A program made the translations under genes and the position numbers. The notes below the pieces were generated by a model. It had not been told where the DNA came from. It did no database searches and was given only the letters and a program-made list of their open reading frames with translations. A stretch of DNA of 25,857 bases from positions 1 to 25,857 of the IMG/VR virus record IMGVR_UViG_3300028110_000080. One strand, written 5' to 3'. Positions within the stretch are counted from its first letter, which is position 1, and every line of letters begins with the position of its first letter. This document shows positions 3,022-24,123 of this stretch, piece by piece. Source of the DNA: a virus.

Positions 3022-5052
3022 ATGTCAATTAAAATTCTTAATGGAATTGACGTGGACAACGGCGTGTTGTACACAGACACTGCTAATAATAGGGTAGGGA
3101 TTGGAACGGCTAGTCCAGATCATAAGTTAGACGTAGACGGGGGCGCTCAATTCAACACTAATACTGGAACAACTCCATTTTACATAACAAGACTGGGAGG
3201 CACTAGCCAAGCGCTATCTATAAAAGTAATGGATGACAACGTTAGGTTTGAAAGCATTCAAGACGAAGCAGCAGATAATTACGGTGGTTTTGATTTTAGA
3301 ATGGACGGTGGAGTAACAGAGCCTGACTTTGTTATTAGAAAAAATGCTGGCAGCCCTATACTTAATGTAAAAGGAGACGGCAACGTTGGTATTGGAACTA
3401 CTAGTCCAGGTGAAAAATTAGAAGTAGCTGGAAATATAAAAATACAAAGTGGAGGTTCTTCTTCTGATAGTAATTATATATCAATGGTAGGAAGTAGAGC
3501 TATTTTTGGATATGATGGTAGTATCAGCTCAGCATATATGAGATCAAGTGATACATCAAAACCTTTAGTATTTGGATCAGGCTCAAGTGAGTTTATGAGA
3601 ATTGTATCTTCTTCAGGCAACGTTGGTATTGGAACTACTAGTCCTGATAGAAGACTGCACGTTAGAGACACTGCTATAGTTACTACAAAACTTGAGGGAA
3701 CTAGTCAAGGTTCTTTATTAGACTTAGTTAATTCTAACGCAAGTCAAACATATAACGGTTTAAGGTTTACTCAAGGAACTACAAGTAAAATGGCTGTTAC
3801 GCACATAGCAGACGGTACTACGAAAGGATATGTACAAATAGGTAATAGCTGGGGTGCAGGGTCAGAGATACTAGTCGTAGACGGTAGAACATCAAGAGTA
3901 GGTATTGGGACGACTAGTCCAAGCTCTAAATTACACATTTATGATGTTGCGCCTACTTTAAAACTACAAGCAGACTTATCAGTTGCGCCCTGCACTATTT
4001 CTTTCGATAATTCATCAGGAACTCAAGAAGGATCTTTAATTCATAACACAGGAAGCAATACTTTTAGACTTAATAATGTATCGGGCAATAGTAGGTTAAA
4101 TCTTGATAGTTATTCAGCTGCATTTTCTGTTGGAACAAGTAATTTAGATCAGTCAGGTGTAATATTAGGAGCTACTACTCTTACTTTAAAATCTAATTTT
4201 AGTACAGCTTTAACTTGTGATATGGCTGGCAAAGTAGGCATTGGGACTACTAGCCCTACCGATAAACTTACTGTGCAAGATGGAAACATAAGATTAAACT
4301 CCACCTCTACTTATCCTACTCAGGGCCTCTATGCTTATGCGAACAATAGTTCTCCAAACATGGGGGGAATTTCCTGGCACCAAAATCCAGGGTTTATTGG
4401 GTCTGAATGGACGCATTATAAGCGAACATCACCTTATACGTTGGCTAGAATAAGGCTGATTGGTGATGCTAGTAGCGGCGGAATGTTTGTAAATCTTAAT
4501 AATTCAGATGTTTTTACAATCAAAACCTCAACAGGCAATGCTGGTATAGGGGTAACTAACCCAAGTGAAAAACTTGAAGTTAATGGGGCTGTAAAAGCAA
4601 CAGCAACTACAGACGCTTATAAAGGTTATATTAAACAAAACGTAATTAGTTATGGGGCTGAAAAAGTAGAAAACTCTAACTATTATTTTACCTCTTACAA
4701 TACTACAGCCACGGTAACTAGCGCTCAAGCATACAATAGAATGGTTGCTGCTTATGATGGCAGGGTTAAAAAAGTATATGTAAGACACGGAGGGGGTTCA
4801 ACACCTACTGCAACTGCAGTTAATTTTAAAAAACACGTAAACAATGTTACATCTGCAACAACATACGCTGCAACTGTGGCTAATACTGCTAGTACAAACA
4901 TGACCGCTTATTATGAATTTGCAGACAGTGATTTTACTTTTAATGCTGGAGATTTAATAGGTCTTTTGTATCAAACTACAGAGCCCTTTGGAACATCTAA
5001 AACCATGGGGGGCGTAGCTATTACTATAACACTTGAATATAACATTACTTAA
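3022..5052 (+). CDS. Repeat-containing tail fibre / adhesin (VGIGTTSP modules)
   Basis: This 676-residue protein carries six copies of a [VA]GIG[TV][TA][SN]P..[KR]L motif, starting near residues 25, 122, 201, 293, 405 and 507. Each copy begins a segment of about 80-110 residues. The pattern is typical of long phage and bacterial adhesins whose beta-helical or beta-prism blocks are joined by this short turn motif. In many relatives it is followed by an S74-type chaperone domain; I see no S74 catalytic signature here. The protein instead ends in a distinct beta domain (about 540-676, including RVKKVYVRHGGGSTPTATAV and FTFNAGDLIGLLYQTTEPFG), probably the receptor-binding tip. The start is the only good ATG after the preceding AT-rich gap. 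The next gene starts one base after its stop. Confidence 0.72.
   Translation: MSIKILNGIDVDNGVLYTDTANNRVGIGTASPDHKLDVDGGAQFNTNTGTTPFYITRLGGTSQALSIKVMDDNVRFESIQDEAADNYGGFDFRMDGGVTEPDFVIRKNAGSPILNVKGDGNVGIGTTSPGEKLEVAGNIKIQSGGSSSDSNYISMVGSRAIFGYDGSISSAYMRSSDTSKPLVFGSGSSEFMRIVSSSGNVGIGTTSPDRRLHVRDTAIVTTKLEGTSQGSLLDLVNSNASQTYNGLRFTQGTTSKMAVTHIADGTTKGYVQIGNSWGAGSEILVVDGRTSRVGIGTTSPSSKLHIYDVAPTLKLQADLSVAPCTISFDNSSGTQEGSLIHNTGSNTFRLNNVSGNSRLNLDSYSAAFSVGTSNLDQSGVILGATTLTLKSNFSTALTCDMAGKVGIGTTSPTDKLTVQDGNIRLNSTSTYPTQGLYAYANNSSPNMGGISWHQNPGFIGSEWTHYKRTSPYTLARIRLIGDASSGGMFVNLNNSDVFTIKTSTGNAGIGVTNPSEKLEVNGAVKATATTDAYKGYIKQNVISYGAEKVENSNYYFTSYNTTATVTSAQAYNRMVAAYDGRVKKVYVRHGGGSTPTATAVNFKKHVNNVTSATTYAATVANTASTNMTAYYEFADSDFTFNAGDLIGLLYQTTEPFGTSKTMGGVAITITLEYNIT
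3097..4563 (+). repeat. Six dispersed copies of a GGTATTGGAACTACTAGTCC-type repeat
   Basis: Related 21-base units begin at 3097, 3388, 3625, 3901, 4237 and 4543, all in the same reading frame of the fibre gene. Copies 2 and 3 are identical over about 29 bases (3380-3408 and 3617-3645) although the protein between them differs. The copies encode the VGIGTTSP turn motif. Because DNA identity, not only protein identity, is kept between neighbouring copies, they could act as short homology arms for loss, gain or exchange of the modules between them. That last step is inference. Confidence 0.8.
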
Positions 5053-7004: not shown

Positions 7005-7233
7005 AGCAGTTGAGGAATTAATTAAAGTAGCCAAGGAGGCTATTGTGGATTCTGATGATGATATTTCCGCTGATAGATTAAAAAATGCGGCAGCCACTAA
7101 AAAATTAGCAATATTCGATGCGTTTGAAATATTAAATCGTATTGACGAGGAGGAGCGAATAATTGATAACAAACCTAAAGAAGATGATAAGCCTAAGTCG
7201 TTTAAGGGGTTTGCTGAAAAAAGATCTAAGTAA
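6958..7233 (+). CDS. Terminase-adjacent small protein, candidate small terminase subunit
   Basis: This 91-residue protein is almost entirely helical and strongly charged. An N-terminal helix (IIQAGHKAVEELIKVAKEAI) is followed by a second (ADRLKNAAATKKLAIFDAFE, then ILNRIDEEE) and a lysine-rich tail (KSFKGFAEKRSK). It ends in a TAATG overlap with the large terminase gene, the usual place for a small terminase subunit that recognises phage DNA and regulates the large subunit. The size is at the low end for TerS, and I see no clear helix-turn-helix, so the role is inferred from position and helical makeup. Its start overlaps the end of the GroES-like gene by 47 bases. I recall similar unannotated proteins directly upstream of TerL in marine phages. 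Confidence 0.5.
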   Translation: MNIKETKRNIIQAGHKAVEELIKVAKEAIVDSDDDISADRLKNAAATKKLAIFDAFEILNRIDEEERIIDNKPKEDDKPKSFKGFAEKRSK

Positions 7234-9443
7234 TGTACGAACAGGCTTTATTAAAGATTATAACTCCTATTAAATTAAACACTATATCTAGGCTAAATAA
7301 AAGTAAAAAATGGCAGTATGGGTATAGCAAAGAGCATGATGTCGTCGTTATTAGTAAAACCGGCCAAATAGGAGAAGTTTACGAAATACAAGGGTTAAAA
7401 ATAGCTTTACCAAAAGCTCCGGCTAAATTAGATAAAACTTACGATAAATGGACGCCAGAGGAATACCCTAGAGAGCTAAAAAATATATCTAGTGTATTTG
7501 ATTGGCGCGATTATCCAGACGATTTTAAAGAAAAATGGGAACCATATATAGATGAACAATTTAAAAAAAGAGACGAAGGCCATTGGTTCAATAATAAGAG
7601 CATGGCTACTTACATTACTGGCGCTCACTTTATGTACTTGCAGTGGAGCAAGATTGACGTTGGGAAGCCAGACTTTAGGGAAGCAAACAGACTATTCTTC
7701 ATATTCTGGGAGGCTTGTAAAGCCGACGCACGATCTTACGGAATGTGTTACCTTAAAAACCGCCGTTCAGGATTTTCATTTATGTCTTCAGCAGAGACCG
7801 TTAATTTGGCGACAATTACGTCAGATGCACGGTACGGTATCTTGTCTAAGTCTGGAGCGGATGCTAAGAAAATGTTCACAGACAAGGTTGTACCAATATC
7901 CGTCAACTACCCGTTCTTTTTCAAACCCATCCAGGACGGTATGGACAGGCCAAAGACCGAGCTTGCCTATAGGATTCCAGCCAGTAGACTCACTAGGAAG
8001 TCTATACAAAATAAGAAAGATAAAGAATTACTCGAGGGGCTTGATACCACGATCGACTGGAAGAACACAGGCGACAACTCCTACGATGGGGAAAAACTTA
8101 AACTTCTCGTCCACGATGAATCGGGGAAGTGGGAAAGGCCAGACAACATCCTTAATAACTGGAGGGTTACAAAAACGACACTAAGATTAGGAGCCAGGAT
8201 TATTGGCAAATGTATGATGGGCTCAACGTCGAACGCATTAGACAAGGGAGGAGAGAACTTTAAAAAATTATATAATGATTCTGATGTTACCAAACGAAAT
8301 AGAAACGGACAAACTAAGTCAGGATTATATTCTTTGTTCATACCTATGGAATGGAATTACGAAGGATTCATTGATTCTTTTGGGATGCCTGTATTCGAAA
8401 CCCCACTTAAGCATTGTGAGGGACCATATGGAGACGTTATAGACGTCGGGGTTATAGAACATTGGGATAATGAGGTTGAGGGATTAAAAGGCGATCAGGA
8501 TGCTCTAAATGAGTTCTATAGGCAATTTCCACGAACAGAGGAGCATGCGTTCCGGGATGAGACTAAAAACAGTATATTTAATTTAGTAAAAATATACGAA
8601 CAAATAGACTATAACGAAGACTTAAAGAATAGTAGCGTTGTTACCACTGGGAGTTTTTCTTGGGAAAACGGTATTAAAGATACTAAAGTAAGATTTACGC
8701 CTAATCCCCAGGGAAGGTTTAAAGTTAGCTGGGTTCCAGACCGTGGCCTGCAAAATAGGCAGGTAATAAAAAACGGTGTTAAATATCCGGGTAATGATCA
8801 TATAGGGGCATTTGGCTGTGATAGCTATGACATATCAGGAACAGTAGGGGGGAGTGGGTCAAAAGGTGCTTTGCACGGATTAACTAAATTTTCAATGGAA
8901 AATGCACCTCCTAATCATTTTTTTTTAGAATATATAGCACGGCCACAAACAGCTGAAATGTTTTTTGAAGATGTACTTATGGCTTTAGTATTTTATGGAA
9001 TGCCGTTATTGGCTGAAAATAATAAACCTAGATTGCTGTATTATTTAAAAAGAAGAGGATACAGGGGCTATTCAATGAACAGACCAGATAAGCTATGGAA
9101 TAAACTTTCCGTAGCAGAAAAGGAAATAGGCGGGATACCGAACTCAAGCGAGGATATAAAGCAAGCACACGCAGCAGCTATCGAAAGCTATATAGATAAA
9201 CACGTAGGTTTGCTGGATGATAATAGTTACGGCACCTTGTATTTTAGTTCAACATTAAATGATTGGTCTAAGTTTGATATAAACAAAAGAACAAAATTTG
9301 ATGCCGCAATAAGTAGCGGGCTGGCTATAATGGCATGTAATAAAAACCTTTATAGACCAATACCTTCAACACAAAAACAAAAACTAAATTTAAATATTGC
9401 TAAATATAATAATGGCAGTAATATTTCAAAAATAATAAAATAA
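7233..9443 (+). CDS. terL: Terminase large subunit (ATPase-nuclease)
   Basis: This is the DNA-packaging motor, which threads genomic DNA through the portal using ATP and cuts concatemers. At 736 residues it is on the long side for TerL, as in crAss-like and related phages. An N-terminal extension precedes the ATPase domain. I read a deviant Walker A at about 175-182 (KNRRSGFS, lacking the classic GK[ST]), a Walker B at 289-296 (LKLLVHDE, with D295/E296), and a coupling motif near 328-335 (MMGSTSNA). The RNase H-type nuclease domain opens with GAFGCDSYDISG (D530, D533) and continues through YIARPQTAEMFFEDV to a late acidic site near FDAAISSGLAIMA. Its start overlaps the upstream stop by one base and the portal gene follows after two bases. 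The stretch 7621-8220 is clearly more GC-rich than the rest. Confidence 0.9.
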   Translation: MYEQALLKIITPIKLNTISRLNKSKKWQYGYSKEHDVVVISKTGQIGEVYEIQGLKIALPKAPAKLDKTYDKWTPEEYPRELKNISSVFDWRDYPDDFKEKWEPYIDEQFKKRDEGHWFNNKSMATYITGAHFMYLQWSKIDVGKPDFREANRLFFIFWEACKADARSYGMCYLKNRRSGFSFMSSAETVNLATITSDARYGILSKSGADAKKMFTDKVVPISVNYPFFFKPIQDGMDRPKTELAYRIPASRLTRKSIQNKKDKELLEGLDTTIDWKNTGDNSYDGEKLKLLVHDESGKWERPDNILNNWRVTKTTLRLGARIIGKCMMGSTSNALDKGGENFKKLYNDSDVTKRNRNGQTKSGLYSLFIPMEWNYEGFIDSFGMPVFETPLKHCEGPYGDVIDVGVIEHWDNEVEGLKGDQDALNEFYRQFPRTEEHAFRDETKNSIFNLVKIYEQIDYNEDLKNSSVVTTGSFSWENGIKDTKVRFTPNPQGRFKVSWVPDRGLQNRQVIKNGVKYPGNDHIGAFGCDSYDISGTVGGSGSKGALHGLTKFSMENAPPNHFFLEYIARPQTAEMFFEDVLMALVFYGMPLLAENNKPRLLYYLKRRGYRGYSMNRPDKLWNKLSVAEKEIGGIPNSSEDIKQAHAAAIESYIDKHVGLLDDNSYGTLYFSSTLNDWSKFDINKRTKFDAAISSGLAIMACNKNLYRPIPSTQKQKLNLNIAKYNNGSNISKIIK

Positions 9444-9445
9444 GT

Positions 9446-11878
9446 ATGGCTGAATCAGTTGTAAAAAGTTCTTTCCCTAGTCAAGTTGCTAGTGACGCTG
9501 AAAAAATTTCTTCGGAATACGGCTTAAAAGTTGGACGAGCAATTCAAGACGAGTGGTTCAAAACAGATTCTGGAGCTAATTCAAATAGATTTGTTAGTAA
9601 CCAACACACTTTTCATAAATTACGATTATACGCAAGGGGCGAACAGCCTATACAAAAATACAAAGATGAGTTGTCAATAAACGGTGATTTATCTTATTTG
9701 AATTTAGATTGGAAGCCTGTGCCTATTATTCCTAAGTTTGTAGATATCGTAGTAAACGGTATGGCGGAAAGGAACTTTGATATAAAAGCATATTCTCAAG
9801 ATCCGTATGGGGTGAGCAAAAGAACACAATATATGGAAGATGTTCTTAGAGATATGCACGCTAAGGACCTATCAGATTTTGTGCAAAATGAATTTGGTAT
9901 ATCTATATTTAAAACAAATGTAGAGGATTTACCTGAAACAAAAGAAGAATTAGAAATACACATGCAGCTGACCTACAAGCAAGCTGTAGAAATAGCTGAA
10001 GAGCAGGCAATAAACACTTTGCTAGAGGGTAATTCTTATGATCTTACGCAAAGAAGAACTTATTATGATTTAACTACGATAGGTATTGGAGCTGTAAAAA
10101 ACAGATTTACATTATCAGAAGGTGTGGTGGTTGATTATGTAGACCCGGCTAATTTAGTTTACTCATATACTGAATCGCCATATTTTGAAGATATATACTA
10201 TGTTGGTGAAGTAAAAGACATTACAATAAATGATCTTAAAAAGCAATTCCCAAGTTTAACAAATGATGATTTAGAAAAAATATCTAAAACGTCTTACCAA
10301 AGCAATAGTTTTTATAACAGACCATTAAACAACTCTGCGTCTCCAGACGTTAATACAGTGCAGGTACTGTATTTTAATTTTAAAACCTACATGAACGAGG
10401 TTTACAAGATTAAGGAAACCGCTACAGGGGCTAGTAAAATAGTTTTAAGGGATGATCAATTTGATCCACCTGTAGAGATGTTAGAAGAACAATTTGGTAA
10501 GCTTTCAAGGTCTTTAGAGGTTTTATACGAAGGAGTATTAATACTAGGTACAGACTATTTGTTAAAGTGGGAAATGGCTAAAAATATGATGAGGCCAAAA
10601 AGCGACTATACCAAAGTATTAATGAACTACAGTATTGTTGCCCCGAGAATGTACAAAGGCAAAATTGAGTCTTTAGTGAGTCGTATAACAGGCTTTGCTG
10701 ATATGATACAACTTACGCATTTAAAGTTGCAGCAGGTATTATCTCGTATGGTACCAGATGGTGTTTATCTTGACGCTGACGGCTTAGCCGAAGTCGACCT
10801 AGGTAACGGAACAAATTACAATCCTCAAGAAGCATTAAATATGTTTTTCCAAACAGGTTCTGTAATTGGTAGGTCGTTTACTCAAGAAGGTGATATGAAC
10901 CCGGGCAAAGTGCCTATTCAAGAAATAACAAGCGGTTCTGGGGGTAATAAAATGGCGGCCTTAATTAATACGTATAATTATTATCTACAAATGATTCGAG
11001 ACACAACGGGTCTAAACGAAGCTAGAGACGGTAGTACGCCTGATTCAAGAGCTTTGGTGGGTATACAAAAAATAGCAGCGGCAAATAGTAACACTGCTAC
11101 AAGGCACATTCTTAATGGAGGTTTATATTTAACGGCTACATTAGCGGAGTGCTTATCTCTTAGAATATCTGACATATTAGAATTTTCACCTACAAGAGAT
11201 GCTTTTATACAGAAGATAGGCGGCCACAATGCAGCTACTCTTGAAGAAATGGGTGGGTTACATTTGTACGATTTTGGTATATTCTTAGAGCTAACACCAG
11301 ATGAGGAAGAAAAACAGCAGCTAGAAAATAATATTCAAACAGCGTTGTCTGCAGGTTTAATAGAACTTTCTGACGCTATAGACATCAGGGAAATAAAAAA
11401 TATTAAATTAGCTAACCAAGTATTAAAGCTAAGAAGAAAGAAAAAGCAAGAGCGTGATCAGCTAATGCAACAGCAAAATATTCAAGCCCAAGCCCAAGCT
11501 AATGCTCAAGCACAGCAGGTAGCAGCTCAAGCTGAAGTGCAAAAAAATCAAGCTTTAAAACAACAAGAAATAGAGCTAAAACAAATCGAAGCACAGCTTG
11601 CTGAAAGAAAAATGCAATTAGAGGTTCAGTCCAAAATGCAACTAATGAATTTAGAATTTCAATACAATATTCAGCTTAGGAACATGGACACTCAGCAAAA
11701 AGACACTATTGAGAATTCCAAAGAAGACCGAAAAGACAAAAGAATTAAAATGCAAGGCTCTCAGCAAAGCGAGCTAATTGATCAAAGAAAAAATAATACG
11801 CCACCAAAAAACTTCGAATCTAGCGGAAACGATATATTAGGAGGTGGATTTGACTTAGGTTCTTTCGAGCCCAAGTAA
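9446..11878 (+). CDS. Portal protein
   Basis: The portal is the dodecameric ring at the unique capsid vertex, through which DNA enters and leaves. This 810-residue protein begins two bases after the terminase stop, the canonical position. The core contains long helices and a segment with GGNKMAALINTYNYYLQMIR, DTTGLNEARDGSTPDSRALV and ILNGGLYLTATLAECLSLRI, matching the stem, wing and crown region of large portals in crAss-like and related podoviruses. From about residue 660 to 790 there is a long K/E/Q-rich coiled coil with many QAQ repeats (QAQAQANAQAQQVAAQAE), probably forming the barrel that projects into the capsid. It ends with a glycine-rich segment and FDLGSFEPK. Family call is from recalled resemblance plus gene order, and is strong. 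Confidence 0.85.
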   Translation: MAESVVKSSFPSQVASDAEKISSEYGLKVGRAIQDEWFKTDSGANSNRFVSNQHTFHKLRLYARGEQPIQKYKDELSINGDLSYLNLDWKPVPIIPKFVDIVVNGMAERNFDIKAYSQDPYGVSKRTQYMEDVLRDMHAKDLSDFVQNEFGISIFKTNVEDLPETKEELEIHMQLTYKQAVEIAEEQAINTLLEGNSYDLTQRRTYYDLTTIGIGAVKNRFTLSEGVVVDYVDPANLVYSYTESPYFEDIYYVGEVKDITINDLKKQFPSLTNDDLEKISKTSYQSNSFYNRPLNNSASPDVNTVQVLYFNFKTYMNEVYKIKETATGASKIVLRDDQFDPPVEMLEEQFGKLSRSLEVLYEGVLILGTDYLLKWEMAKNMMRPKSDYTKVLMNYSIVAPRMYKGKIESLVSRITGFADMIQLTHLKLQQVLSRMVPDGVYLDADGLAEVDLGNGTNYNPQEALNMFFQTGSVIGRSFTQEGDMNPGKVPIQEITSGSGGNKMAALINTYNYYLQMIRDTTGLNEARDGSTPDSRALVGIQKIAAANSNTATRHILNGGLYLTATLAECLSLRISDILEFSPTRDAFIQKIGGHNAATLEEMGGLHLYDFGIFLELTPDEEEKQQLENNIQTALSAGLIELSDAIDIREIKNIKLANQVLKLRRKKKQERDQLMQQQNIQAQAQANAQAQQVAAQAEVQKNQALKQQEIELKQIEAQLAERKMQLEVQSKMQLMNLEFQYNIQLRNMDTQQKDTIENSKEDRKDKRIKMQGSQQSELIDQRKNNTPPKNFESSGNDILGGGFDLGSFEPK

Positions 11879-17211: not shown

Positions 17212-20200
17212 ATGCCAGAATTTATCCGTTCTTTCCAGACTGGGAAAATGAATAAAGATCTCGACGAGCGACTAGTGCCTCAGGGCCAATATCGCGATGC
17301 TTTAAACTTAGATTTAGCAAACTCAGAGGGGTCTAACGTAGGTACTTTACAAAATGTAAAAGGCAATGTTGAATTGCGCGGCAAAATATCAGACACTGAA
17401 AACGGATGGCAGGCTAACTATATAGAAGATTTAGATAATCCTGTTTGTATCGCGTCTATAAAAAACGATATAAACGAAAAAATATATTGGTTTATTGCGT
17501 CTGACAATGTTAGCGCTATCGCTGAATTAGACACCACAACAGGGTATATACATCCCATATTAGTCGACACAAATAACATATTAAATTTTTCTACAGATTA
17601 TTTAATTACAGGAGTTAACATAATTGATAAGTTTTTATTTTGGACAGACGATCAGACAGAACCAAAAAGAATTAATATTAACAAGTTTAAAGCTGGATCT
17701 TGTAATTTTAATACACATACGAAAATTCCTGAATGGAACCCAGGACAAGATAATTATACAGAGGTTAATTGTGGCTTTGGCGGAAGCGCGGAACCAAACT
17801 TTACAGAAGACGATATTACTGTAATTAAAAAATCCCCTTTAAAAGCGCCATTATTAGATGTTTCTGCATCTCCCTTCGGTAATAATATTAACGGCACAGG
17901 TATTACTCCAGTATACACTACAGCCGAAAGCCCAGCAGGCACAGGTACTGGAAATTTTACATTTATACCTAATACCTTAGAACCTGCTGTAACCCTTCCT
18001 TTAGACACATACGGAGCATATTTAGCTAATATAGAAGAAAGCCCTACATATTATGCAAATAGTAATATACCCAATTGGAACGGTTTAATTACTTTTGATG
18101 TTGCGCCTATATACGACCAATTTGCAAACAACGGAGGACCTGTTTGGCAAAATGACGATATATTATTATTAAACGGTAAATTTACCTCACAATTTAATGA
18201 AACATTTGAATATCAACTTAGAGTACAAATTGATTCTTTAAATAATAGTATAGTAACGGCTAAAATATTAGGTATTTCATCTGATTTATATAAACCTACA
18301 GATGAAAATGGCGATGTAATATTAATACAATGGGAGGTATTGCTTGAAGAAAAGGAGCCTATGTTTGAATATATTTTCCCAAGATTTGCATATCGTTGGA
18401 AATATATTGATAATGAATATTCTTGTTTTTCTCCATTTTCAGAAGTAGCTTTTGTTGGCAATGATTTTAAATACTTGTCTTCAGACGGGTATAATGTCGG
18501 GATGACTAACAATATTAGAAAACTTATTATAAATTCTTTAGAATTAGGAACAGAGGAAGTAGATGAGATAGAAATATTATATAAGGAATCTCATAATACA
18601 ACGGTTTATTCTGTTGATTCTATTAAGAAAAAAGATTTTTTACCCTATAACGCTGGCGCTGGAAGTGTGCCTACATCTTTTGAAATAAAGTCCGAGATAA
18701 TTGGAGCGGTTGTACAGTCTAATCAAATATTAAGACCTTGGGATAATGTTCCACGTAAAGCTAAATCACAAGAGATTGTTGGAAATAGAATAATATATGG
18801 TAATTATTTACAAAATTATAATATAGAATATCCTATTGATTTAACAGTAAGTTATTTGCCGAAAGTTCACCCCGCAAATTTAACGATCAATCAAGAAACC
18901 GTTCCAAATCCTTTTGAAAGACAACCTTTCTCAAGTTTAAAATCAATAAGAACTTATCAAGCGGGAATAGTATTTAAAGACAAATATGGGAGAGAAACCC
19001 CGGTGCAAACAACAAAAACAGCTTCTATAAATATACCTATATTAAATTCTGTTAGCACAAACGTTCTTCAAATAACCCCGTCTGGACCCTCTCCAAGCTG
19101 GGCAACTCATTTTAAATTTTTTATAAAAGAAACCTCTAATCAGTATTATAATTTAGCCTTAGATAGGTTTTATTTCGCAGAAGATGGCAATGTATGGCTA
19201 TCATTTCCTTCGTCAGAAAGAAATAAACTTGATGAGGAGACCTATCTAATTCTTAAAAAGCAGCATGATAACAACGTTGCGGTAGATAATTTAAATAGAT
19301 ATAAGGTATTAGCTATAGAAAACGAGGCGCCAGATTTTATAAAAACTTTTGAGTCAACCATAGCTAGAGCAACAGTTGAAATTACAAGCGGATTTGAGCA
19401 AGATTTTATTACACTAATATTTAATTGCGGAACAACAAATACTTTATTTAAAGAAGGATTTAAATCTACTAGAAAATTACAAATAGTAGCAGGGGCTAAT
19501 GTCACTGATAAATACGATATAAAATCAGGAGGACCAACAGGAGTAGGTGACCAATATACCATTACACTAGAAAGGCCTTTAGGGTTTGATGCAGCTTGGT
19601 TGTCTTCATACAATCCTGGAGATAATATCGACATTTCTATACTAGAAAATGTTGTAGAAAATAAACAAGAATTTGAGGGTAGATTTTTTGCTAAAATAAA
19701 TAGAGACTTTGCTTTTGATACAAATATTGTTGCGTCTTTTGAGGCATTGCAACCACGATATGCGATTAGAGCTGAGCATAATGTTGTAAATTCAATTACA
19801 GGTATTAGCCCAGGTAACGGTGGTATAAAAATGGGCTGGCTAGATAGTAGAGGCTATGGGCATACAACGCCTTTTTTGCCTAAAAGACCTTCAAATGGGT
19901 CCAATAAGTTTACATTAAATTTCGCAGGCTGGCCTTATGGTGGTGGTACTAATGTATCTTTACATGATTTTGACATCGATCATTATATACACTCAGCAAC
20001 GATTGGTCCTTTTGAGTATAATCATATTAGGGGTACCGGAGTTTTATTAAGATTTATCTCTAGCACCGGAGAGGTAAGTGATAATGTTTACAAAATTATT
20101 GCATACGAAAGAAAGAAAAGCTACAGGGGTTATACAGATATTGTTGGTGACCCCAGACAAGTCCATACTAATATGCGTAAAACCTCATATTATACAATGG

Positions 20201-22563
20201 ATCAAAACTACAATGAAACTTTTTTACCTACAGGTATTCAAGTTGTAGAGGAAATAATAGAAGACGATAATAAGCTTTTAACATCAAACAATCCAGCTAT
20301 TTTTGAAACTGAACCAAAAGAGGCTATTGATTTAGATTTATATTACGAAGCTTCTGATGCAATACCTATAGCGAATTATAACAGCACACATGAGCTAAAT
20401 AGCTATTATAATTGTTATTCTTATGGGCAGGGCGTGGAATCTAATAGAATAAGAGACGATTATAATGCTTTTACAATAGATAAGGGCCCTAAGGTTTCTG
20501 CTCCACTTGACGAGCCATACGCTCAAGAAAGAAGGGGGAATGGTTTAATATTTTCTCAAATATTTAACTCTACAAGCGGTATAAATAGGCTCAACCAATT
20601 TATACAAGCAGAACCTATAACAAAAGATTTAAATCCAACATATGGTACAATTCAAAAACTACATACCAGACAAACAGATTTATTAGCTTTATGTGAGGAC
20701 AAAATAGTAAAAATATTAGCGAATAAAGATGCTTTATTTAATGCAGATGGCAATGTTAATTTAACCGGTAATAATGCTGTTTTAGGCCAAGCTATGGTTC
20801 CTGCTACTTTTGGTGAGTTTGGAATAAGCAAAAACCCTGAAAGCTTTGCGGCGGATAATTATAGAATATATTTCACAGACAAAAACCGTGGAGCTGTTTT
20901 ACGATTATCAATGGACGGAGTAACGGATATAGCTGGAAAGGGTATGTCTGACTTTTTCGCTGATAATTTAAAAGTATCAAATAAGCTTATAGGCAGCTTT
21001 GATAAAGAAAAAGACTTATATAACATAACTTTCGACCGGTTGTCTCAGGATTGGAATAATATTCTTAGCCCTAGTCAACAATATCAATTAACACCGGAAT
21101 GTGACATAAATGCTTTTACTAAATGCAACGAAACTACAGTTTCTTTTAAAGAAATGGTTGACGGCTGGACTTCGAGAAAGTCATTTATACCGGAAAGTGG
21201 TATAAGTTTAAACAATATCTATTACACTTTTAAAGATGGCCGAATATATGAGCACGGGCTAAACATACTATATAACAACTTTTATAGGCAACAATATGAC
21301 AGCTCCTTCAATGTTCTAATGAACGATGGGCCTCAATCTGTAAAAGGGTTTAGCACTGTAAATTACACAGGAACAAGATCAAGAAGATTTGAGTATCTGC
21401 ATGATTCCGAATGGTATTCAATAGCTGAAATAAACGCTATACCTGCAATACCTACTTCAATACAACAAAAGCAACCAGGTTGGTATGTAAACTTTGTTAA
21501 AACTGACCTCGAAGGAGGAGAAGTTAAAGAATTTGAAAAGAAAGAGGGTAAATATTTTAATTACATAAAAGGGTTGGAGATATTTAATGACTGCGACGAC
21601 ACACCTGATGGAATTGGTAACCCTGATATCATAGATAGCGACCCACAGGATTACATATTAACTGTTACAATTGATGAAGGCTGTAGCGGAAGCGGAGGAG
21701 CTGTGCCTGATGTAATACAATCTTTTGTAAATATATGGAATTGTGTTAAACCGACTATAGAGTTAAACATTGAAAATGAAACTATTGCTCAAGATATTAA
21801 GTGTTTAATCGAAGAGTTCTACGATCCTCTTTTTCAAAATTATACTTTGGTTTCAAATAATGCAACTGCATTTTCTTATTTATCTAGTCAGGGGCTGCAA
21901 GTTGGCACGCAAATGTATAATAGCTTAACTAACGAACCTATCACCACGCCTGGCGCATATTTATTCGTTGGTGCTGGGCAACAAATGTCTGATTTAACAG
22001 TGAATCACGCTGGGCTAGACGCTAATAATGCAACAGTTGCACCTTCTACTTATTACGTAATGATATTAGATAGTAGCGGCCAAATAGCATCGTGGACACA
22101 ATATAATACATTAGCGGCCTGTGAAGACGACTGTATGCCTGATACTGAAATTAATTTTTATTGGTTTAGATCTCCTGATTCTAGTGATATATATAGTGGC
22201 GTAAACTGGTCAGGATATACTAACTTTGGTAACACTAGATATGTTATTGAAGAGAACTTTACTGATTATCCAAATGGAGGCCCTGTAGGCAATGTTAATG
22301 TAGAATGGAGATATAATTTATCTGACGGGGTTGACGTTGGTACTAAAATATGGAACTACGGGCAGCACGTAAGTAACCCATGTGAATTTGTGCCTTTTGA
22401 TGCAATGTATTTGTGGGTAGGATCTTCTACTGTTGATCCTAACCTTGCCCTAGATCCAAATGACCCTACTCCAATACCAAATGAATACCGATTAATAAAA
22501 ATAACAAATGGAATAATAACCTCCTGGATGAGATATAACGCAATAACTCCAGTAGCACCTTAA
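17212..22563 (+). CDS. Tail nozzle / stabilisation protein (1783 residues)
   Basis: The N-terminus carries GKMNKDLDERLVPQGQYRDA followed by LNL, the signature I remember for the tail nozzle or 'stabilization protein' of crAss-like phages, related in role to P22 gp10 and T7 gp12. Repeated beta segments follow (KIYWFIASDNVSAIAELDTT; DYLITGVNIIDKFLFWTDDQ), consistent with a propeller-like barrel near residues 50-150. The long remainder is mostly beta with inserted domains. Near residue 1130 a second block begins (LHTRQTDLLALCEDKIVKIL; RIYFTDKNRGAVLRLSMDGV). The C-terminal 250 residues hold two diverged copies of one module (see repeat entry). The protein forms the tail end that contacts the cell and is a multidomain, surface-exposed assembly. 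It is the largest gene in the window. Confidence 0.82.
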   Translation: MPEFIRSFQTGKMNKDLDERLVPQGQYRDALNLDLANSEGSNVGTLQNVKGNVELRGKISDTENGWQANYIEDLDNPVCIASIKNDINEKIYWFIASDNVSAIAELDTTTGYIHPILVDTNNILNFSTDYLITGVNIIDKFLFWTDDQTEPKRININKFKAGSCNFNTHTKIPEWNPGQDNYTEVNCGFGGSAEPNFTEDDITVIKKSPLKAPLLDVSASPFGNNINGTGITPVYTTAESPAGTGTGNFTFIPNTLEPAVTLPLDTYGAYLANIEESPTYYANSNIPNWNGLITFDVAPIYDQFANNGGPVWQNDDILLLNGKFTSQFNETFEYQLRVQIDSLNNSIVTAKILGISSDLYKPTDENGDVILIQWEVLLEEKEPMFEYIFPRFAYRWKYIDNEYSCFSPFSEVAFVGNDFKYLSSDGYNVGMTNNIRKLIINSLELGTEEVDEIEILYKESHNTTVYSVDSIKKKDFLPYNAGAGSVPTSFEIKSEIIGAVVQSNQILRPWDNVPRKAKSQEIVGNRIIYGNYLQNYNIEYPIDLTVSYLPKVHPANLTINQETVPNPFERQPFSSLKSIRTYQAGIVFKDKYGRETPVQTTKTASINIPILNSVSTNVLQITPSGPSPSWATHFKFFIKETSNQYYNLALDRFYFAEDGNVWLSFPSSERNKLDEETYLILKKQHDNNVAVDNLNRYKVLAIENEAPDFIKTFESTIARATVEITSGFEQDFITLIFNCGTTNTLFKEGFKSTRKLQIVAGANVTDKYDIKSGGPTGVGDQYTITLERPLGFDAAWLSSYNPGDNIDISILENVVENKQEFEGRFFAKINRDFAFDTNIVASFEALQPRYAIRAEHNVVNSITGISPGNGGIKMGWLDSRGYGHTTPFLPKRPSNGSNKFTLNFAGWPYGGGTNVSLHDFDIDHYIHSATIGPFEYNHIRGTGVLLRFISSTGEVSDNVYKIIAYERKKSYRGYTDIVGDPRQVHTNMRKTSYYTMDQNYNETFLPTGIQVVEEIIEDDNKLLTSNNPAIFETEPKEAIDLDLYYEASDAIPIANYNSTHELNSYYNCYSYGQGVESNRIRDDYNAFTIDKGPKVSAPLDEPYAQERRGNGLIFSQIFNSTSGINRLNQFIQAEPITKDLNPTYGTIQKLHTRQTDLLALCEDKIVKILANKDALFNADGNVNLTGNNAVLGQAMVPATFGEFGISKNPESFAADNYRIYFTDKNRGAVLRLSMDGVTDIAGKGMSDFFADNLKVSNKLIGSFDKEKDLYNITFDRLSQDWNNILSPSQQYQLTPECDINAFTKCNETTVSFKEMVDGWTSRKSFIPESGISLNNIYYTFKDGRIYEHGLNILYNNFYRQQYDSSFNVLMNDGPQSVKGFSTVNYTGTRSRRFEYLHDSEWYSIAEINAIPAIPTSIQQKQPGWYVNFVKTDLEGGEVKEFEKKEGKYFNYIKGLEIFNDCDDTPDGIGNPDIIDSDPQDYILTVTIDEGCSGSGGAVPDVIQSFVNIWNCVKPTIELNIENETIAQDIKCLIEEFYDPLFQNYTLVSNNATAFSYLSSQGLQVGTQMYNSLTNEPITTPGAYLFVGAGQQMSDLTVNHAGLDANNATVAPSTYYVMILDSSGQIASWTQYNTLAACEDDCMPDTEINFYWFRSPDSSDIYSGVNWSGYTNFGNTRYVIEENFTDYPNGGPVGNVNVEWRYNLSDGVDVGTKIWNYGQHVSNPCEFVPFDAMYLWVGSSTVDPNLALDPNDPTPIPNEYRLIKITNGIITSWMRYNAITPVAP
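21840..22560 (+). repeat. Two diverged tandem copies of a ~90-residue module at the nozzle C-terminus
   Basis: In copy 1, LQVGTQMYN (around residue 1564), GAYLFVG and GQIASWTQYNTL fall in order. In copy 2, VDVGTKIWN (around residue 1709), AMYLWVG and GIITSWMRYNAI fall in the same order. The distance from the first motif to the last is about 58-59 residues in both. The DNA is diverged, so the duplication is old. I align these by eye. Confidence 0.6.
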
Positions 22564-22572
22564 TATAATAAT

Positions 22573-24123
22573 ATGCCGGAAATAAATAACTATAGTTTTT
22601 CAAACGCTGTGTTTAATATACAAGAGGGTACTGTAATAAACGATCAAGTTACAAGCGCTATAATAACAATATCCCCATTGTCTGGGCATACTGTTACAGC
22701 ATCTGACTTTAGTTTAGACCCTTCGTTTTCTAATGCATATGTACAAAGTGTAACGTTTACGCAAAGCGGAACTAATGTTATATGTACAACTACTTTTTTA
22801 CCTACTGTAACTATGCCATCCGCTAACGTTACAATACCTTTGTGTATTGTGGGCCAAGGTGTTGTTAACGAAATAACAATAGGGGGAACAGTTACAGCAG
22901 TTGTAGGGGCTGATGTTACAGGAGATAGTAGCGAGACAGATACTACTTATTCTAACAGTGGTAATGTAGGGAATAATGAATTGCTTTTTACAAGAACATA
23001 TAACGCCGCAACAGGTTTTGCGTGGGCTAATAATGGGCTACCTTCAATAAATGTAACGCAAGGAAATCAATCCAACTATAATATAATCCAAACTCCAATT
23101 TTTGATTCGCAAAATAGATTAACAAATATAACTTACGATGTTAATTACATATATCCCTCCGCTGATATTTCAGGAGATCATATTGATATAGTAGTACCTA
23201 AAACAAATTTAATTTATAATCCTTTGCCAAAAATAACAGGATATACCTTTAATACTTCCGTATTGGGCAATGATGCTGAAATTAGATCTTTAGTGGTTTT
23301 AGGAACTCCCTCAACAACTTTCAGCGCTACATTAAATGACGGTACAACAACAACAACAATTATAAACAATCAGCCTCTTGATGCAAACGGAAGATTTGAG
23401 CAAGATGTATCATTCCCGGCGTTAACAAAAGGGCAACCCAATAGACTGTATACTATAGAGCTAACAGGGTCAAATGTTGCTAATATACCATTGCCTAACC
23501 CTTTTACCGTTAGTCAATTAAATGAAGTTCAAATTATAGTAGGTAAAGTAAATAATGTTCCTACCCCTGTTTCTGGTTGGCCGTCGACCGATCCGCGCAC
23601 AGAAATAGCGGCTTTGACTCAAAATCCTTTTACAAATTTAACGCAGTCTTCTGGCATATGGTTAATAAAATTAGATTATAATCTTTCACCTTATACCGGC
23701 ACAGGCACGTTCACCGTTATAAAACAAATAGAAACTTCGGATTTTACAAACACAGATGAAATTATAACTGCCGCTAATGGGAACCAAACAAATGTAACCT
23801 CACTTACTTTAGATAGTACAGCGGGGATAGTTGTGGGTGACAAGATTGCATTATTGGATGAATTGGCACCGTATGAATCTACAGTTTCTGGTGTTAATAC
23901 GTCTACAGCATTAACAATTTCACCAGCTATAACTGTTTTAGATAATCAACAAATAAATTTTTATAGAGATAATGGTAACAAAATAGAAGTTTTTAATAGT
24001 AATGTAACTTTAGTAAATAGCTCCACTGTTAATTTAAAATGTGATATTGCAATTGTAAATGTAGGGGATGCAGGTATAACATTTGATTTAGATTTAAGTA
24101 ACATAATTTCATATACGCCATAA
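22573..24123 (+). CDS. Beta-rich Ig-like structural protein
   Basis: This 516-residue protein is almost wholly beta with very few lysines or long helices, as expected of tandem Ig-like domains. Sections such as AIITISPLSGHTVTASDFSL, VQSVTFTQSGTNVICTTTFL and KITGYTFNTSVLGNDAEIRS show alternating-strand spacing. The last 120 residues (SLTLDSTAGIVVGDKIALLD, then TALTISPAITVLDNQQINFY) look like a small beta-barrel repeated in the next gene. There are no signal peptide, catalytic or membrane features. It follows the nozzle gene by nine bases and overlaps the next by one base. It is most likely a nozzle-associated appendage or adhesion protein on the particle surface. That is inference, as I do not recognise the full protein. 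Confidence 0.55.
   Translation: MPEINNYSFSNAVFNIQEGTVINDQVTSAIITISPLSGHTVTASDFSLDPSFSNAYVQSVTFTQSGTNVICTTTFLPTVTMPSANVTIPLCIVGQGVVNEITIGGTVTAVVGADVTGDSSETDTTYSNSGNVGNNELLFTRTYNAATGFAWANNGLPSINVTQGNQSNYNIIQTPIFDSQNRLTNITYDVNYIYPSADISGDHIDIVVPKTNLIYNPLPKITGYTFNTSVLGNDAEIRSLVVLGTPSTTFSATLNDGTTTTTIINNQPLDANGRFEQDVSFPALTKGQPNRLYTIELTGSNVANIPLPNPFTVSQLNEVQIIVGKVNNVPTPVSGWPSTDPRTEIAALTQNPFTNLTQSSGIWLIKLDYNLSPYTGTGTFTVIKQIETSDFTNTDEIITAANGNQTNVTSLTLDSTAGIVVGDKIALLDELAPYESTVSGVNTSTALTISPAITVLDNQQINFYRDNGNKIEVFNSNVTLVNSSTVNLKCDIAIVNVGDAGITFDLDLSNIISYTP

Follow-up and report, generated by a model that had tools for sequence, protein, structure and literature searches.

The muzzle homologue and its setting

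The window, the whole stretch of 25,857 bases analysed here, is the virus record IMGVR_UViG_3300028110_000080. Its plus strand carries a large open reading frame (ORF; Table 1), which sits in a block with the genes for the terminase (7233–9443), the portal (9446–11878) and virion structural proteins. Besides the PHROG match given in Table 1, residues 1–1389 of the product have homologues among the structural proteins of phages that infect Cellulophaga and Flavobacterium, found in 87 records. PF25729, the muzzle C-terminal domain, scores 29.3 bits against a cut-off of 27 when residues 1004–1486 are scanned, and 23.4 bits, under the cut-off, when the scan covers the whole protein. The long muzzle model PF25731 has no match in the protein at E up to 1, nor in the proteins of phi38:1 and elemoF at E up to 0.1, and it is for this reason that the product is termed a muzzle homologue rather than a member of PF25731. 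As judged from its sequence, it is a homologue of the crAss-type muzzle. The virus itself is crAss-like and has a bacterial host, which is probably a flavobacterium, as Flavobacterium and Cellulophaga are the hosts of the closest cultured relatives.

Table 1. Positions of the muzzle homologue and of its C-terminal features in the window
Feature	Position (nt)	Strand	Basis
Muzzle (tail nozzle) homologue, 1783 aa	17212–22563	+	ORF; PHROG 14478, E 2.8e-130; phi38:1-type homology over aa 1–1389
PF25729 domain, aa 1354–1453, final part of the conserved core	21271–21570	+	Profile scan
Core end and Ser/Gly-rich junction, aa 1484–1496	21661–21699	+	Module-less L039 and L054 stop here
Module 1, aa 1497–1637 (profile core 21781–22113)	21700–22122	+	Module profile; predicted model
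Helix Cys1531 of module 1 (putative disulfide partner Cys1637 at 22120–22122)	21802–21804	+	Joint presence or absence
TQYNTL end of module 1, exchange seam	22096–22113	+	Breakpoints at most 30 nt away in 12/12 mosaic pairs
Module 2, aa 1638–1783 (profile core 22225–22545)	22123–22560	+	Module profile; hhalign; predicted model

Two further genes of the window are of note. The gene at 3022–5052 encodes a protein of 676 amino acids with six repeats of the type G-I-G-[TV]-x-[SN]-P, counted by eye, which give it a fibre-like look; it has no Pfam match at E up to 1. The gene that follows the muzzle, at 22573–24123, encodes 516 amino acids that are unmatched in PHROGs and Pfam at the limits used, and its product is a further candidate for a variable surface protein. 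The last 307 residues of the muzzle homologue are also found at 100% identity in two other IMG/VR contigs, L002 (21,371 bases) and L003 (52,603 bases), the second of which may reveal more of the phage to which the window belongs.

The two C-terminal modules

The last ~285 residues of the muzzle homologue are made up of two homologous modules of ~140 amino acids each, which follow one another with a period of 145 amino acids. A preliminary description of this DNA had noticed a duplicated unit here on the strength of three motifs, and these do occur in both copies where it placed them: the VGT-aromatic-N motif as VGTQMYN at residue 1564 and VGTKIWN at residue 1709, the YL[FW]VG motif as YLFVG at residue 1583 and YLWVG at residue 1733, and the ending motif as GQIASWTQYN up to residue 1632 and GIITSWMRYN up to residue 1776. 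The equal spacing ascribed to them holds from VGT to the G of the ending motif (59 and 58 residues) and breaks down between VGT and YL[FW]VG (19 versus 24). The unit is, moreover, about twice as long as was described, for the repeat period is not ~60 residues and a strand and a helix precede VGT in each copy (in copy 1, TIAQDIKCLIEEFY); the start of the duplication had been put at 21840, which falls inside module 1, whose beginning lies at ~21700.

That the repeat is real is confirmed in several ways. Local alignment of one half of the region with the other gives a score of 87, the highest of 2000 shuffles being 61. A profile built from copy 1 only, with seven sequences, retrieves copy 2 of the window with an i-E of 3.1e-7 and 29.9 bits, and shuffled copy-2 controls reach at most 8.2 bits under the same profile (4228 of 5000 shuffles scored). 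With hhalign, the copy-1 family (7 rows) and the copy-2 family (5 rows) are paired with a probability of 95 and a P of 3.4e-8 over 113 columns. The self-comparison by profile that had been proposed as a check on the repeat therefore brings the two copies together.

A predicted structure had been chosen beforehand as the result on which the repeat could fail. An AlphaFold model based on 33 related tails, which supersedes an earlier and poor one from 7 rows (pLDDT 51.0), has a mean pLDDT of 81.6 and a pTM of 0.60. When averaged in blocks of ten residues, the pLDDT of copy 1 is 86–98 with one block at 63, and that of copy 2 is mostly 69–89 with three blocks at 52–59. Both copies are predicted to have the same order of elements, namely a helix, a strand, short strands, a strand, a short helix, a two-strand hairpin and a short helical turn. 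They thus appear to share one fold, a view based on this order and on the sequence homology rather than on a superposition.

Comparison of the two-module model with the PDB by Foldseek, in which the part compared was mostly module 1, gives a best E of 0.54, and comparison with viral models a best E of 0.038, so that neither has a match at E up to 0.001. VIA-align returns one chain at Z 2.3, over ranges that lie mainly in model residues 1–128 and barely cover copy 2. At the sequence level, seven whole tails give no Pfam family at E up to 1, and the names that Pfam returns for 53 module copies are scattered over one or two copies each (best E 0.008) and are taken as chance, as are the scattered weak names that are the most that PHROGs and NCBIfam yield with tails or module copies. 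No described adhesion, lectin or Ig domain of Pfam-A has a profile match in the modules, and a search of PDB sequences with the modules gives no accepted match; a pentatricopeptide protein (PDB, E 3.8e-6) was dismissed, as its score adds up eight matches of 2.9 bits each, all to a single short motif. An alignment termed A5, which takes in 53 of the 76 copies found among relatives (see below), has no invariant column, and G42, G100 and N109 are the positions that come close to it. The modules form an undescribed family, with a recognisable skeleton and a cysteine pair.

This pair consists of a cysteine in the helix and another within ten residues after the module. In the 71 of the 76 copies that have the helix column (five are without it), both cysteines are present in 59 and both absent in 12, with no mixed case. 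A thinned set of 26 copies under 50% identity, from which relatedness is partly removed, contains 21 copies with both and five with neither (Fisher p 1.5e-5). Because the two cysteines are present or absent jointly, a disulfide between Cys1531 and Cys1637 would be expected in module 1 of the window. Such a bond from helix to tail may close most modules; copy 2 of the window has neither partner.

Distribution among related phages

A total of 92 muzzle ORFs were read, from the window, L002–L009, L016, L018, L020 and L021–L100, and 81 of them have distinct last 300 residues, the 11 repeats being left out. The relatives are limited to the best 80 of 483, and the figures therefore apply to near relatives. 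Within this set an iterated module profile finds 76 copies in 43 of the 81 muzzles, with two copies in 31, one in 11 and three in a single muzzle, and no recognised module in 38. Among these 38, the muzzles of L051, L052, L062 and L063 are truncated at the edge of their contigs, and that of L060 terminates within the core. The one-copy L046 is likewise truncated by its contig, and L009 and L020 are counted with one copy each, their second copies being visible by eye and beyond the reach of the profile. The muzzles of L009 and L020 (2044 and 2061 amino acids) also have ~250 additional residues between the core and the module array.

Two of the module-less proteins, L039 and L054, terminate at the stretch that precedes the array of the window. 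In L059, L064 and L066, bacterial Ig domains are found at the module position. DUF285 repeats come after the modules in L043 (7876–9663, E 5e-214), and in L035 two modules are followed by a BNR/sortilin-like stretch (8317–9321) that is below the cut-off. These matches come from eight tails scanned out of ten listed, of which three, L053, L075 and L076, matched nothing. Since no module is recognised in 38 of the 81 near-relative muzzles, and none is seen in phi38:1, elemoF and crAss001, modules would not be needed for infection as such.

Module matches are tied to the muzzle. In ten of ten related records searched by profile, all 21 matches fall in muzzle ORFs, those of L134 being in a muzzle fragment. 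In L134 (4191–5804), according to a six-frame scan of 136 records, the output of which was limited to open frames below 1000 amino acids and seven named loci, the muzzle region is split into several frames, one of which, with 538 amino acids, holds the core end and two modules; the split is either a sequencing error or a real break. The records of phi38:1, elemoF and crAss001 give no module match at E up to 1, an empty result that says little by itself, the positives for this search being related records searched separately. Four tblastn queries against 50,697 records of cultured phages yield no match at E up to 1, and plasmids searched with copy 1 yield none either. In genome contigs, the scan of which bears on the suggested occurrence in Bacteroidetes proteins, 9 stretches matched the pattern from the module alignment and 53 the pattern from the muzzle core, none of which was confirmed; one or two short patterns make this a weak test, which does not imply absence from cells.

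Exchange of modules between phages

All 496 pairs of the 32 proteins with at least two copies were compared over a stretch of 460 amino acids of the core before the array, over copy 1 and over copy 2. For the 304 pairs with a core identity of 65–97%, the median identity is 72% in the core, 44% in copy 1 and 28% in copy 2. The window and L007 have amino-acid identities of 92% in the core, 77% in copy 1 and 24% in copy 2; for L004 and L022 the corresponding values are 74%, 42% and 94%, and for L032 and L022 they are 80%, 88% and 20%. L022 is therefore a mosaic, with a copy 1 that resembles that of L032 and a copy 2 that resembles that of L004. At the level of DNA, the identity between L004 and L022 rises from 49–56% in copy 1 to 93–96% in copy 2, and it stays high for ~120 nt beyond the muzzle stop, into the start of the next gene.

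Twelve pairs are mosaic when this is defined by a DNA identity of at least 78% in one module and a difference of at least 20 points between the two modules, and these pairs overlap in their proteins, L022 being present in five. As they were picked for unequal modules, some breakpoint between the two is to be expected. The informative part is that a two-segment fit puts it in every pair at the TQYNTL end of module 1 (Table 1) rather than ~100 nt further on, so the linker travels with module 2; the seam is the ending motif of the preliminary description. These comparisons show the modules to be mosaic between phages, with whole modules changing places at a junction at the TQYNTL end. The terminal modules thus vary and are exchanged on an anchor that is conserved, which is the arrangement by which a phage receptor-binding region is recognised.

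Copy 2 is not the sole variable part of the protein. Residues 841–1020 (19732–20271) form a second highly variable part, with 18–35% identity between the window and L004 and between the window and L007, which is as low as in copy 2 or lower, in muzzles that are 92–100% identical over the first ~60 residues and over the C-terminal core. This stretch may be the counterpart of a part of the crass domain. A reverse-transcriptase element was considered as a source of the variation and set aside, PF00078 being absent from six of six related records (52–67 kb, possibly fragments; the control matched 3 of 14 genomes), a result that is not exclusive.

A proposed role in host recognition

The favoured reading, to which a probability of about 0.6 is given, is that the C-terminus of the muzzle acts as a socket bearing a row of exchangeable modules for recognition of the host surface, their binding being putative. 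The surface-binding role, already suggested when the repeat was first noticed, is supported indirectly, in that phages with similar adjoining cores trade the modules, and copy 2 foremost. It is the combination of a conserved anchor, homologous outer modules, exchange of whole modules, a changeable outer copy and adhesion-type domains elsewhere that has the look of host recognition. In its favour there is also a series of copy numbers from 0 to 3 that share one junction, and the presence of adhesion-type domains at the same place in other relatives. Against it, no known binding domain resembling the modules emerged by sequence or, in comparisons mostly of module 1, by fold, and the many muzzles in which no module is recognised also count against it. 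The separate fibre-like genes of the window, together with the variation of residues 841–1020, which is as great or greater, argue against an exclusive role. The modules probably help to decide which bacteria are recognised.

If the muzzle is hexameric, as in crAss001, a virion would bear six arrays and hence twelve modules. The inner module would be the more conserved and the outer the more changeable, and the outer one may contact a variable structure of the host surface, either a polysaccharide or an outer-membrane protein. The array probably projects from the side of the muzzle, flanking rather than capping it, since in crAss001, a distant homologue, the C-terminus of the chain follows the distal crass domain. 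The modules are, as was claimed for them, appended at the C-terminus of the muzzle homologue; this comparison makes it doubtful that they also lie spatially at the nozzle's end. It is conceivable, if somewhat short of an even chance, that the muzzle gate doubles as a receptor-binding platform, with a standard socket for homologous modules of an undescribed fold, swapped at an inbuilt seam, or for other adhesion domains, such that recognition and gate opening would be combined on one molecule. More speculatively, binding by the gate protein itself could help to place or trigger the muzzle.

An alternative is that the modules are docking adaptors for another virion protein, either the product of 22573–24123 or a fibre, with copy 2 tracking its partner. 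The next gene adjoins the muzzle directly, and near relatives are also unlike in the later part of this gene (54–69% identity between the window and L004 at ~700–1400 nt after the stop), and the copy 2 that moved between L004 and L022 is accompanied by the start of this gene. However, the rest of the gene is not shared by L004 and L022, where identity goes down to 35–74%, and between the window and L004 copy 2 has a DNA identity of 63–69%, yet the first ~600 nt past the stop are 82–97% identical. On these identities copy 2 and the next gene do not travel as partners, and a docking role is unlikely.

The modules could also confer a general stickiness near algal or cell polysaccharides, without selection of the host strain, for which the decorative Ig domains of other phages offer a comparison. 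Their optional presence and varied copy number would suit this, as would the unrelated adhesion-type domains that occupy the same place in relatives. However, copy 2 diverges strongly even where the cores are nearly identical, and whole modules are exchanged, both of which are better suited to a changing specificity; stickiness alone is given a low probability, much like that of docking. That the modules are enzymes, acting for example on polysaccharide, instead of binders is very improbable: depolymerase tails are described as common in podoviruses in the available text of one source (PMC10136315), but no enzyme family is matched and the near-invariant columns of A5 are not a catalytic set.

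Origin of the pair

The preliminary description had suggested that the pair could be the product of a tandem duplication, and the copies are indeed neighbouring homologues, with 34% identity across their aligned cores. A tree of the 76 copies, built by a quick method from few columns and having long branches, with 27 of its 71 inner branches left open, mostly separates first from later copies, the position labels requiring 5 changes against a mean of 25.2 when shuffled. The exceptions are the first copies of L023 and L084, which fall among later ones, and the second copies of L031, L035 and L036, which fall among first ones. Copy 1 of the window falls in a set of 11 rows, all first copies (SH-aLRT 95). 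Copy 2 falls in a set of 5 rows (SH-aLRT 100), together with copy 3 of L028 and the second copies of L004, L005 and L022. The two copies of the window are thus not sisters, each being grouped with the like-placed copies of other phages, and copy 1 is 64–78% identical to the first copies of nine relatives, well above its identity to its own neighbour. A recent, local duplication within this phage lineage has next to no probability left, and any duplication would predate these phages.

Comparison with known systems

The muzzle of crAss001 is a hexamer, the distal part of which is the crass domain within residues 318–1021, and insertions in the crass domain and in IG2 make muzzles vary in length, according to the available part of one account (PMC10172136). 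Its muzzle protein, gp44 (PDB 7qok), matches both PF25731 and PF25729. The second of these domains is common to gp44 and the protein of the window, and in both phages the muzzle gene comes after the gene of a small tail protein. In contrast, gp44 stops 38 amino acids after PF25729, whereas the protein of the window continues for 330, and PF25731 is matched by gp44 and not by the window protein, the direct similarity between the two being weak. Closer counterparts are gp97 of the Cellulophaga phage phi38:1 (Pervagoviridae) and the corresponding protein of the Flavobacterium elemo phages, which are 31–35% identical to residues 1–1389 in the matched pieces. The order of genes around the muzzle is the same in these phages as in the window, but the records of phi38:1 and elemoF have no module array.

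Receptor-binding domains are exchanged in tailspikes and tail fibres, as far as the available text of two sources goes (PMC10408124, PMC8432352). As in those systems, whole C-terminal modules are swapped on a conserved anchor in the family of the window; unlike the cases described there, the anchor is a muzzle, the modules are homologous to one another and their family is undescribed. The targets of diversity-generating retroelements (DGRs) in crAss-like phages provide for rapid change of a putative binding region, again going by the accessible parts of the sources (PMC11054128, PMC12386605), whereas the modules of the window family differ as wholes, by exchange. In the available text of the open literature on the crAss muzzle protein, preprints and subscription journals aside, no description of C-terminal muzzle modules was found.

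Domain exchange is therefore known in other phages, and what appears to be new is the muzzle as its site, together with the undescribed family of modules. The crass-type muzzle has mostly been discussed as a conserved gate, and here its C-terminus behaves like a site for host-range cassettes with a visible seam. If the modules do bind host surfaces, then the types of module would provide a sequence handle by which uncultured phages could be linked to their hosts.
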